Positions 54,723 through 60,063 of a DNA stretch of 64,000 bases are shown one piece after another. The translations under genes were made by a program, and so were the position numbers. Position 1 is the stretch's first letter; each line of letters begins with the position of its first letter. This stretch comes from Mortierella sp. BCC40632. Taxonomy: Eukaryota > Mortierellomycota > Mortierellomycetes > Mortierellales > Mortierellaceae. The stretch is taken from the NCBI GenBank assembly GCA_011634665.1, contig WAEK01000026.1:248001-312000 (forward strand), read 5' to 3'. The notes beneath the pieces are model-generated. The model did not search any database, was not told the DNA's origin, and saw only the letters and a list, made by a program, of their open reading frames with translations.

Positions 54723-56596
54723 ATGAGGATCCTTACCATTACCTTTGCCGCAGTCTCGATTGCCATCGCTTTTGCTGCTCCAACGCAAAAGCGTGCCGCT
54801 AATGACAAGTATGTCATCGGATACTATGTCCCATGGGGCAATCTTCCCGTCTCGGCCCTCGATATGAGCAAGTACACTCATATCAACTAGTAAGTTCCTT
54901 TCATACCTTCAAACATTTCTTTCGTACCTATTGTACAGCCTTTTTGGATGTCGCTTTTAACGCCTTGCTTATTTCATGTCTTTGCATGGCATGACCAATC
55001 CAATAGCGGATTTGGAACGATGTTGAAGCAGGCACCCAACCCTACCGACATCGTCATCGACATCAACTACGATGGTCCCCCACTCAAGGAGCTTGTCAAG
55101 CGCGGCAACCAGCACAATGTCCCAATTCTCTTGTCTATCGGAGGCTGGAGTGGCTCGCAGACCTTCTCGACTGTCGTTGCTAGTCCAATCCTTCGCAAGG
55201 TCTGGATCGAGAACGCAATGGTCTTCTTGCGCAAGAACACGCTCGGAGAGACGGCTCCCACTCCTAACGGCTGGGGTCTGGATGTAAGTGAGAGCCTTTC
55301 CTCTTGTAAAAAGTCATTTCTTTGCGCTTTCTTCTCGCGTGGGACGTTACTACTAACACGGCGTGTGCTTCTTCATCGGTTGATCACCTCCTAGGGTATT
55401 GATATTGACTGGGAATACCCCGGACGTCAGGGGGCAGTCTGCAACATTGTCTCTCCTTTGGACTCTGCCAACTATCTCCTTCTCCTCAAGGAACTGCGTG
55501 CTCAAATGGACCTCGAGTTCCCAACCCAGCGCAAACTCTTAACTGCCGCTGTCCGTATCCTGCCCTTCGACGGCCCCAACGGCTCTCCTCTGAATGATGT
55601 CTCTGCCTTTGCCCAGTACTTTGACTTTATCTGTAAGTCCACTTGATCTTCAACTAGCTCACTGCGATCTCTTTGTCATATTAAGTCGTCCATTTCCCCT
55701 AATGAAATTTCCTTCACCTTGTTTGTCTGCATTTGTGAAACATAGCCATCATGGCCTATGATATTATGGGTCGATGGAGCGCTGTTACCGGACCCAGATC
55801 CGCGCTCTACAACCCTCCTTCGCCTGCCGATCCATTCTCTGCCAACTCTGCTGTCACTGCCTGGAGAAATGCTGGCTGGCCTGCTGAAAAGCTTGTCCTT
55901 GGTGTTCCATTCTACGGACATGCGCTTACCTCGACCGTCAACATGAACACCCAAAACCCCATTACTCAGTATAAGCCCCACACTGGCGTTGCCCCACGTG
56001 GTGGACCCTCGGATTCGAACCTTCCTAACCCCTGGTGCGATGAGGGTGCCGCTTACGGTGGTAGCTGGAGCTGGAAGGAGATCCGCAATGCTATTATCAA
56101 GGACAACGGCCTTTTGACCCCTGTCGCAGGCTGGACTCGCCACTGGGACGACATCACCAAGACCCCCTGGTTGTTCCGTGAGTCTGACAAGACTTTTATT
56201 TCTTATGAAGATGTTCAGTCGTTGAATCTCAAGATTGATTACATCAAGGCCAACAACTTGAAGGGTGTCATGTTCTGGGATTCCACGATGGACTTTAACA
56301 GTGAATTATTGAACGCCGTGAACAAGGTTCGTTGCACTGGCACTAGCTGCAACCCTACCTCGACCACCACCACCGTCATCACCACCACAACAGCAACGGT
56401 GACGCCTTCCCCTACCATCACACCCAACCCATCCATCTGTAATGGCATCGCTGGTTGGGCTAGCGCCACCGTCTATTCCCAGTCTGGTACCAAAGTCACC
56501 CACAATGGACGCCTCTGGAGCAACAAGTGGTGGACCCAGGGTGAGGCCCCTGCTGGATCCTCCTGGGGTGTCTGGTCAGATCTCGGTGCTTGCTAG
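54723..56596 (+). CDS. secreted GH18 chitinase with C-terminal chitin-binding module
   Basis: Hydrolyses chitin by substrate-assisted catalysis outside the cell or in the wall. Four exons, 54723-54889, 55007-55283, 55395-55632 and 55746-56596, give 510 aa. There is a signal peptide (residues 1-19, ending FAA) and a possible Lys-Arg processing site (QKR). The GH18 barrel has KYTHINYGFG, LLSIGGWSGSQTF and the catalytic DGIDIDWEYPG with Asp148, Asp151, Asp153 and acid Glu155. The rest of the barrel has MAYDIMGRW and the last-strand KGVMFWDSTMD. A Thr-rich linker follows, then a CBM5/12-type module of about 45 residues (WASATVYSQSGTKVTHNGRL) with the WW pair that stacks on chitin. All catalytic residues are intact. 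Confidence 0.96.
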
Positions 56597-57564: not shown

Positions 57565-59329
57565 ATGACGAAAACTGGGGCCCGGAACAAGGAGCTGGTA
57601 CCCATTGAAGATGATACTCCATATTATATATATAATATAATTGTCTGTGGAATACCAGCGCTTCTTCCATGGTCATACTCGAGGCAAGCCGTCCAAGCCA
57701 CCACTTTCACCCATTGCCAACAGGTTTATCTCTATGTCTGAGCGAGAGCTGTTCTACATACTTTGCGAGAACAGCGAGACTATGGACGCATATCTCGGTG
57801 GCCTTATCCAAGAGCATTTTCCAGAGACTGAGAAAATGTCAGTCGTGCCGACCTTGGATACGCTCCCCCCTGGCTGGCTGATCAATCAAGTCATCTCGCC
57901 TGTGGGTTCCACCTCATCATGCCGAAAAGGGCTAGCGAAAATCACTACGGTTACCACGAAGGACGAGATGGCCGCTATTCTGGATGAAATGAGTAACAGT
58001 TCAAGCAGCGCTACACTCCAAGATGTGCGGAGAGAGTCGGCTGTATCCACGGATGAGACCATGATGGAAGATATTCAGTCCACGGACAACCAACCTCGTT
58101 TCAAGTATGCTCTCTATGGCTCTTTCCAAACCAACGGAGTCGAACTGCATCTAAGGGCTATCAATTTATCCATTCGACGAAGTAAACGCTTCGCCCTGGC
58201 CGAGGAGCGACATGTGCCTTGCTCTGATCAACTTTATGATCCTGAGGAAGGTCACGGCCAATCCCTGAAAGAGATCCGGAACGTCCTGGACTCGAAAGAG
58301 CGCGTGGAACAAATATTTGGCCAAGGACCAGGTCCACCGACACATGATGTAGGAGAAGATGTGGATATTCTTTGCCTGGATCCAGGCCAAGCGTGCACGG
58401 TTGCAGCCTATGCCGTTCGAGCCGATCACCCAGGGGTTGGTCTTTCTCTTGTAGTCAAGAACAAGGCTATTTATCAGCCAACGTTCAAGTTTCGTCAAGA
58501 GCTTCAACAGCGAAAAGACAATGAAGAGAACGGAGCTGGTGTGTCCATCGCCGACATCGAGTCAAGTATCCCATCACTTGACCAAGACCCAAAAGGAAGG
58601 ATCAAGGCAGAGATGGAGCATGGCAAGGACCTCTGGAAGTTCTACAATGGCCACAATGCAAAGTTCCTTCGTGCTCGATGGGATGCTAACAAGGCTCGAG
58701 AAGGCGAGTATGGGATTGTCACTGACAGGCTGCTGTCAATGTTGGGAGGTAGCATTGGCGCGCGTCGAACCCCTGAGAAAAAGCCTTGATTGTTGTAGGA
58801 CTTGGATCGTTTGATAGTCCTAGAGGTCTGATGTCCCTTCATGGATCATTCCTCAGTTGCTTTATTGCCAAAGTAAGTGTACAGTATGTTTCGCAGGTTT
58901 GGATAGCAAAAAAAAAAAAAAAATTGACATACTAGTCTTCACTGCATTCCCAACTTCTAGGCGAGATCGCTCGATTACCTGGTGGTCGGAATCAACGAGT
59001 ACTACACCCCGAAGCGATGCCCAAAATGCCAACGCAGTGGGAGGGACCCATTAGACTTTGTCTCGTCTGCATCGATTCGCAGGCTATTTTGTGAGTCCTG
59101 CAAGACGCCATTCCACTGCGACGTTCTGGCAGCAAGCAATATGACAATGGCAGTAAGGGAGCACTTACAGAGCCAGCAACGGTCTCGATATCTTTTGCCT
59201 GTACACGGAGACGGCTCGTATGGATGGCGATCATCTTTGGCAGAGTCTCCGAGGCATATACAAGATACAGAGTCCATAGCTGGACCATCAACTAAGAGTC
59301 TTATGCGTGTCAACAAACACGAGAATTAG
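57565..59329 (+). pseudogene. Fanzor-type (TnpB-like) RNA-guided nuclease, probably frameshifted
   Basis: The catalytic core of an OrfB/TnpB-like nuclease is recognisable. RuvC-I is seen as ILCLDPGQACTVAA. GLGSFDSPRGLMSLHGSF and ARSLDYLVVGINEYYTPKRC carry the RuvC-II glutamate. A zinc ribbon has CPKC then CESC spaced by about 27 residues, and RuvC-III is FHCDVLAASNM. Together Asp, Glu and Asp are kept. This order is that of eukaryotic Fanzor proteins, programmable endonucleases carried by transposons. The last intron is 58873-58960. Two breaks are seen. Near 57640 an AT-rich stretch shifts the frame between an ATG-led N-terminus (57565) and the main body, whose first ATG is 57734. At 58787 a TGA follows PEKKP, while the homologous continuation (LIVVGLGSF) is one frame off. 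A cryptic 50-nt intron (58749-58798) could bypass the second break. Confidence 0.82.
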
Positions 59330-59510
59330 TTTAGAGGTAAGTGCTACTGGCCTATTCTACACCTATGGGTACACATCATGATCGGGTGCTCACATTAAAT
59401 CATTATTTCCTTTCAATTCCTTCATGAGCTCCTTGTGGTCAGTGCATAAGGACACTCACACAGCACAACAAAAAAAAAGAAAATGAAAAAAAAAAGAAGT
59501 TACGCCAACT
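59330..59510 (+). other. 3' flank of the Fanzor remnant, possible guide-RNA region
   Basis: 181 bp between the Fanzor stop and the GRDP fragment. In Fanzor and TnpB systems the guide (omega) RNA overlaps or follows the 3' end of the nuclease gene and reaches to the element's right end, so this is where one would look. By eye there is no obvious strong hairpin. The segment ends in A-rich DNA (59469-59496). Confidence 0.25.
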
Positions 59511-60063
59511 GGGGTCGCTTCTCTCGGTATGGACAGGGACTCTAGATGCTCTGACTGCACAGCGAGAACTTCACCACCTCTTCTTTCATCCTCAAATCCA
59601 ACTCGGCCTCGACCAAGCCTCAGTTGCTCTCAACTACTCATGGCCCAGGGTCATTGAGGAATTTCAGGGGATGGGTCCTGACCAGTACTACGGGATCCGA
59701 CCTATCACAATCCCTCGGACCATTTCTTCTTACCGCGAACTGGTCGATGACAGGCTCTCTATGGACCTGGTCGCCGGTGCATTGCGGCAACGCGACTTTC
59801 AAAGAGCCATGATGGTCACTGGTGGCCAAGCATGGTGTCAAACTGAGGTTCTGCAGCGGCTGCTGGAACGATACAAGGTGTTTATACTTCTTTCGCGTAC
59901 AGAGAGCAAGAATGGAGGCGGGGTCCCAGGACAACATGCATTGGTGCCTACTTTAGATATTGACCTTGCCTGGCACCGCACCTGCTCTCGCCAGCTCATT
60001 ATCGACAGTACCAGTTGGTTCACTACGGTCGAGTGTTGAATCATGTCACGTCTGCAATGACAA
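59511..60063 (+). pseudogene. truncated duplicate of the GRDP/DUF1399 gene
   Basis: This block is nearly identical to the large exon of the GRDP gene, from its first base (31573) to about 32141, with scattered single-base differences, many silent. Two lesions disable it. One base is lost inside TGGCACACGCACATG, where the parent encodes the signature AWHTHMLSP, so the frame shifts exactly there. A 14-nt deletion follows at 60045 after GTGTTGAATCATG. Homology then stops at about 60063. No upstream or downstream exons accompany it. The copy begins at an exon boundary, with only a few bases of intron-like similarity before it. It was probably derived by segmental duplication or transposon-associated capture. 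Confidence 0.92.

Follow-up and report, generated by a model that had tools for sequence, protein, structure and literature searches.

A truncated Fanzor copy in Mortierella sp. BCC40632, probably derived from a transposon whose relatives appear to encode a FEN1/EXO1-like nuclease and a Fanzor in one protein

In the passages of the published work covered here, most Fanzor1 proteins (Fz1) have a length of 600-700 amino acids (aa), PpFz1, which has an insertion in RuvC, being a notable exception (PMC11423790), and a DPG in RuvC-I is the Fanzor1 fingerprint (PMC10711439). The same passages describe the MuDr-type Fanzor1 elements ROr-4, PBl-3, and MCi-4 of Rhizopus, Phycomyces, and Mucor, which have no MuDR transposase and are flanked by 9-bp duplications (Bao and Jurka 2013, PMC3627910), and they state that a TnpB cut at the sister chromosome enables an insertion sequence to be copied through homologous recombination, a route that is considered possible for Fanzors as well (PMC10432273). 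Here we describe a Fanzor-like copy in a stretch of 64,000 nucleotides (nt) of Mortierella sp. BCC40632, called the window (C26:248001-312000, with C for contig and L for locus in this genome of 49.9 Mb and 62 contigs). The window copy probably stems from a transposon whose relatives encode a protein of a FEN1/EXO1-like nuclease (FEN), a middle domain (MID), and a Fanzor beside a divergent FAR1/MULE/SWIM-type transposase, a reading that includes the mechanism proposed below and to which we give a probability of roughly 0.78. It is based on a constant domain order, seen on one DNA strand as well as in 63 of 82 database proteins, on the conservation of both active sites, on two matching folds in a model, on a transposase neighbour in a subset of copies, on precise right ends whose flanks differ, and on duplications in one subfamily.

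Compared with the described Fanzor1 proteins SpuFz1, GtFz1, and PpFz1, the family found here is alike in its RuvC and zinc-ribbon core with an alternative E 5' of the zinc finger, in a fold that matches over 483 residues in a predicted model, and in being borne by transposons. It differs by an extra N-terminal nuclease of the FEN/EXO1 type of ~300 aa, by the length of many annotated members (1,100-1,350 aa vs. 600-700 aa in the part of PMC11423790 considered), and by a RuvC-I that is mostly DLG, DGG, or DAG and not DPG. With ROr-4, PBl-3, and MCi-4, as far as they are described in the passages of PMC3627910, it has in common that a Fanzor1 is located on a Mutator-type element of early-branching fungi, whereas in the present family some copies have a FAR1/MULE/SWIM-type gene as neighbour, the duplications have 8 bp, and a FEN part appears to be fused. 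In contrast to the 5'-nucleases XPG, FEN1, EXO1, and RAD2, the present nuclease appears as the N-terminal half of a larger protein that continues as a Fanzor and is encoded in a mobile element; the proteins found are from Mortierellaceae. A fungal Fanzor with an extra domain is known as well, but this domain of ~100 aa lies inside RuvC and binds cyclophilin, and is not an N-terminal nuclease (PMC11423790, same part). The words "fused," "fusion," "flap," and "XPG" are absent from the main text of Bao and Jurka (PMC3627910), "fusion" and "fused" do not occur in PMC10432273 and are used only for tag constructs in PMC10711439, and "fusion" does not occur in PMC11423790. Within the literature searched, the FEN-Fanzor fusion would be new among Fanzors. 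No report of such a fusion was found among the papers listed in searches of the openly licensed PMC literature, a scope that does not cover Jiang et al. 2023 (Science Advances), which is said to be a second Fanzor survey.

A search of the same genome for paralogues with the second piece of the window copy gave 52 Fanzor matches, five of which, including the window copy, show 86-100% identity. 5' of the Fanzor part, an open reading frame (ORF) was found on the same strand that starts with MG[VI]x or similar and has XPG/FEN1-like motifs. A FEN match lies 0.8-4.1 kb upstream of 21 of the 52 Fanzor matches, whereas ~0.3 of the 52 would be expected by chance to have one on the same strand within 8 kb upstream, as estimated by crude hand arithmetic from 66 pooled FEN-like places in 49.9 Mb and ignoring the kinship of the copies. 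Among 20 wide loci hand-picked from the 52 matches, 17 have the order FEN then Fanzor, 13 of them with the middle domain in between; L035, L036, and L048 do not have this order, and the window copy consists of the Fanzor part only. As a separate observation, L032 contains at 666-1157, 5' of its FEN-Fanzor gene, a second and different Fanzor-like C-terminus (VVGLTDEFRTSQTC), for which PF07282 remains below the cut-off (0.0047).

The same architecture is found in annotated proteins. From 5.8 billion proteins searched, 82 distinct ones (numbered P) were obtained, with 4 matches among 2,310 candidates for the FEN part of L045, 73 among the best-sharing 7,994 candidates scored for residues 380-1166 of P0001, and 16 among 1,930 candidates for the FEN part of P0034. 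The domain order is FEN-MID-Fanzor in 63, MID and Fanzor in 16, FEN and MID in 2, and Fanzor alone in 1 of these proteins, whereby up to fifteen of the 82 went into building the profiles and match by construction. The proteins come from Mortierella, Linnemannia, Podila, Dissophora, Actinomortierella, Entomortierella, Benniella, Haplosporangium, Gryganskiella, and Gamsiella, and all seven of these ten genera that were checked in a taxonomy look-up belong to the Mortierellaceae. Since the protein search finds only relatives with common short exact words, this range is the one among the matches found, and a restriction to Mortierellaceae is not established. P0015 of Podila clonocystis (1465 aa) contains FEN and Fanzor parts under the name "Elongation of fatty acids protein 2," which is likely a misannotation or a read-through model. 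The 50 matches listed for viral models, in rows without aligned ranges, are of Fanzor/transposase type, of flap-endonuclease type, unnamed, or unrelated.

The predicted active sites of both nucleases are strongly conserved across genera. In the Fanzor half of the relatives, the RuvC-I Asp is present in 74/74, the alternative RuvC-II Glu in 50/55, and the RuvC-III Asp in 50/51 sequences, and all three are found in the window copy, so that the catalytic residues named in a preliminary description of the locus indeed coincide with conserved RuvC positions. The ORF 57641-58789 contains LDPGQ (D codon 58379-58381), and the ORF 58961-59329 contains NEYYTPKRC (E codon 58997-58999), the zinc ribbon CPKC...CESC, and HCDVLAASNM (D codon 59120-59122; codon positions were computed by hand from the motif locations). 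The Fanzor-like identity proposed there was borne out as well, as the C4 zinc ribbon PF07282 is above the cut-off in the second ORF (6.8e-8, 33 bits vs. 26.3) and in L045 (1.9e-11), and the first ORF, for which Pfam gave nothing up to E = 1 when it was searched alone, matched FZ, a Fanzor profile made here from relatives, with 9.2e-23 and 2.5e-28. NCBIfam guided_TnpB reached 19.9 bits on the window gene (cut-off 100). A phmmer comparison of the window pieces with solved structures gave nothing for one piece and a single chance-level match for the other. A predicted model shows a Fanzor fold including its N-terminal part, with which (in SpuFz) the middle domain aligns, and a 5'-nuclease fold in the FEN half. 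The seven metal-binding acids of FEN, numbered as in human FEN1, are kept in 32/34, 42/42, 51/52, 52/52, 46/51, 50/52, and 54/58 sequences, the fourth being Asp instead of the Glu of FEN1. XPG_I is precomputed for six of the 82 proteins (P0023, P0027, P0031, P0070, P0079, and P0080).

Regarding the element itself, a gene divergent from the FEN end matches SWIM above the cut-off (7.9e-7), and an opposite-strand SWIM match lies at 2.2-2.7 kb in 11 of 28 FEN-like places (merged from two scans). Copies are 98.5-99.1% identical over >5 kb with different flanks. In one subfamily the ends are exact, and an 8-bp target-site duplication is found at C1, C3, C15, and C2, that of C2 being A-rich and weak. 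At C15, a 9-bp duplication was predicted from the left end and eight of the nine bases are present at the right end, and therefore the length was set at 8 bp. Target-site duplications of MULEs are about 8-11 bp long. As terminal inverted repeat, just a short imperfect match (GAAAtgtCAC/GAAAgcCAC) was seen by eye. In L041:5700-5740 (C2) and L040:5570-5620 (C15), a second element starts directly after the right end of the first, each with a different 8-bp duplication, which gives apparently two such insertions. C1:545378-559441 and C7:2774864-2790193 are apparent composites, in which a transposase and one FEN match are ~10 kb away from a Fanzor that belongs to another subfamily and comes with a divergent FEN part of its own (L046:200-956).

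The right-end pattern of the window copy (GTGGTCAGTGCATAAGGACACTCA) occurs with up to three mismatches at nine places genome-wide and the reversed-pattern control at one. A different motif, GGTGACGTAAT, follows the Fanzor stop within 300 bases in 14 of the 26 loci scanned (several of these are near-identical copies), and with one or more changes in two further loci; where the element end is known, it starts 33-35 nt before it. Eight right ends were aligned (seven with the exact motif, L012 with one change), and their invariance in the motif is by construction, as they were chosen for holding it. Five of nine right ends fold better than shuffles (z -6.8, -4.4, -3.4, -2.8, and -2.5). The right end is a candidate end of a guide-RNA scaffold, which a guide would follow. 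The Rfam match of 59,200-59,600 to mir-1282 (21.3 bits vs. 107) was taken as chance.

A number of results weigh against a transposon family with a FEN-middle-Fanzor protein. No FEN match lies within 8 kb upstream of 31 of the 52 Fanzor matches, the window copy included, and 17 of the 28 FEN-like places are without a divergent SWIM match within 6 kb; MULE (3.8e-4) and FAR1 (0.0023) stay below the cut-off in the divergent gene. XPG_I and XPG_N are below the Pfam cut-offs in L045, L041, L032, and the other own-genome ORFs scanned, and just 3/74 relatives have DPG in RuvC-I, though the window copy has LDPGQ. C25, the fifth copy of the subfamily with exact ends, lacks a matching duplication, and a search in small left-side pieces gave none for C7, C11, and C4 (subfamily A). 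Ten of the 26 loci, including the window family, do not have GGTGACGTAAT, and the right ends of L012, L018, L022, and L023 fold no better than shuffles, for which reason the right-end hairpin was downgraded as proof of an omega-RNA. At the FEN-MID junction, 5/13 loci (L031, L032, L033, L041, and L050) have no in-frame GT-AG solution, and the success rate of shuffled gaps is 0.58 in L039 and 0.2-0.32 in a further six loci. Shuffling leaves the 90-bp gap of L039 open in 50% of cases, or ~17% if the right frame is required, and the intronless join of this locus was therefore downgraded as strong evidence. Such weak junction tests in most loci would be expected if the FEN-like nuclease and the Fanzor were two adjacent genes of one element that were fused by gene prediction, as would the 16/82 proteins with MID and Fanzor and without FEN, the stop codon that overlaps the proposed splice donor 3' of the FEN part in L038, L045, and L032, and short FEN-only proteins, which would have been missed because candidates under ~0.55 of the query length were excluded. 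We nevertheless regard two separate genes as improbable. L045 has six exons and five GT-AG introns of 84-97 nt in a single frame of 1,346 aa, with FEN and MID joined in frame via a 90-nt intron (shuffled-gap success 0.05). In L039, the end of FEN and the beginning of the middle domain lie in one unspliced ORF, and neither in this locus nor in P0002 does a Met occur from the FEN C-terminus up to the first conserved motif of the middle domain. The same domain order recurs in 63/82 protein models. In an automated test, a single GT-AG intron with a good donor joins FEN and MID in 7/13 loci besides L039 (L037, L038, L040, and L042-L045). In view of the shuffle success of the other loci, L045 stands out as the best case, with the others in a supportive role only; the DNA-level support for a fusion is thus modest, and the agreement of the annotated proteins is the main support. 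The FEN, middle, and Fanzor parts would probably form one polypeptide in the cell. A linker motif was set aside, as a regular-expression search found it in only 3/82 proteins.

A domestication of the family by the host for a role outside transposition would fit how well both active sites are conserved from genus to genus, but it is highly improbable given that near-identical copies have different flanks and that one subfamily shows exact ends together with target-site duplications. For the transposon family with the fused protein, we propose that the MULE-type transposase would move the element, that an RNA from the right end and its flank would guide the Fanzor half to the donor site left empty or to the sister copy, that the FEN/EXO1 half would trim or resect the 5' ends at that break, and that this trimming would favour repair that copies the element back. 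That Mortierellaceae carry two-nuclease RNA-guided enzymes, in which one protein cuts a programmed site, processes the 5' ends, and biases repair to transposon copying, is a tentative proposal with slightly less than even odds. Its main rival accepts the fusion and places the FEN/EXO1 half on RNA or R-loop flaps, where it would mature the guide or trim strands. Flaps at 5' ends are cut by FEN-family enzymes, and some right ends of the element form strong hairpins; on the other hand, TnpB-family proteins process their guide RNA themselves, and we consider this role somewhat unlikely, although the present data do not separate it from the repair model. If the repair model is true, it would define a type of Fanzor that brings its own module for end resection. 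The family would also offer a natural design of an RNA-guided cutter with a 5'-nuclease. The conserved second nuclease and the MULE-type neighbour of some copies hint that end processing is among the things that Fanzors do for their carrier transposons, and the FEN-Fanzor family would explain fungal proteins that are now mostly named "hypothetical."

The window copy is a 5'-truncated, decayed, and ordinary dead fragment of this transposon family (Table 1). Its homology to L031 and L032 (96.6-96.7% DNA identity across the whole copy by BLAST) spans 57,642 to 59,457-59,458; L033, L034, and L036 have their right end at the same place, plus or minus one base, and the flanks beyond it differ from those of the relatives. 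On the 5' side, the stretch common to L031 and L032 runs on for kilobases past the point that matches 57,642, and in L032 the ATG corresponding to 57,641 sits inside a longer frame. The supposed shift near 57,640 is therefore a truncation boundary, as the alignments start inside the ATG codon of the relatives, and the ATG at 57,565 was rejected as gene start because 57,565-57,641 has no homology. Of the broken frames reported initially, a single one is a true break, near 58,787, with FZ positions 404 and 403 abutting in two frames; the gap at 58,873-58,960 is a normal feature of the gene, an intron that lies at the same place in relatives. Among the causes considered there, decay stands, whereas unusual splicing and an assembly error in a homopolymer as the main cause do not. 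That the window copy is a functional gene hidden by one of these two is hardly credible. The frame break does fall in an A-run, and the A-run near 58,780 also differs in length among relatives; however, the copy begins mid-protein without the FEN and middle parts, RuvC-III has CD where relatives have RD (R in 49/51), and TP replaces the conserved TS beside RuvC-II. The absent N-terminal half, these changed residues, and several small indels relative to L031-L033, the nearest relatives, make an assembly error unlikely as the main cause. In L033, a TAA lies in the frame of the exon that holds the A-run, as seen in the alignment.

Table 1. Parts of the Fanzor copy and its 5' border (window positions).
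Feature	Position	Strand	Basis
Sequence before the copy boundary, holds ATG, outside the Fanzor gene	57565..57641	+	no BLAST match in 20 wide loci
Fanzor coding remnant, first part, through RuvC-I and past	57642..58783	+	FZ positions 36-250, 287-404
Frame break within A-run	58774..58787	+	FZ profile in two frames; length variable in relatives
Penultimate exon end, shifted frame, RuvC part 5' of RuvC-II	58784..58872	+	FZ 403-435 at 58777-58875
GT-AG intron, 88 nt (GTAAGT...CTTCTAG)	58873..58960	+	same place in L045, L038; aligned in L031-L033
Last exon: alternative RuvC-II E, C4 zinc ribbon, RuvC-III D	58961..59329	+	PF07282; FZ 435-495
3' region to precise right end (...GTGGTCAGTGCATAAGGACACTCA), candidate omega-RNA scaffold end	59330..59458	+	end common to L031-L034, L036

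AT-repeat stretches are located at the 5' homology limits of two copies of different subfamilies (window 57618-57641 and L040:1690-1711). Around the remnant, a part of a GH18 chitinase with a CBM5/12 domain (PF00704, 4.6e-32) lies on its 5' side at 55739-56596, and a GRDP-like ORF (PF07173, 1e-7), perhaps a gene fragment, follows directly 3' at 59428-60039.
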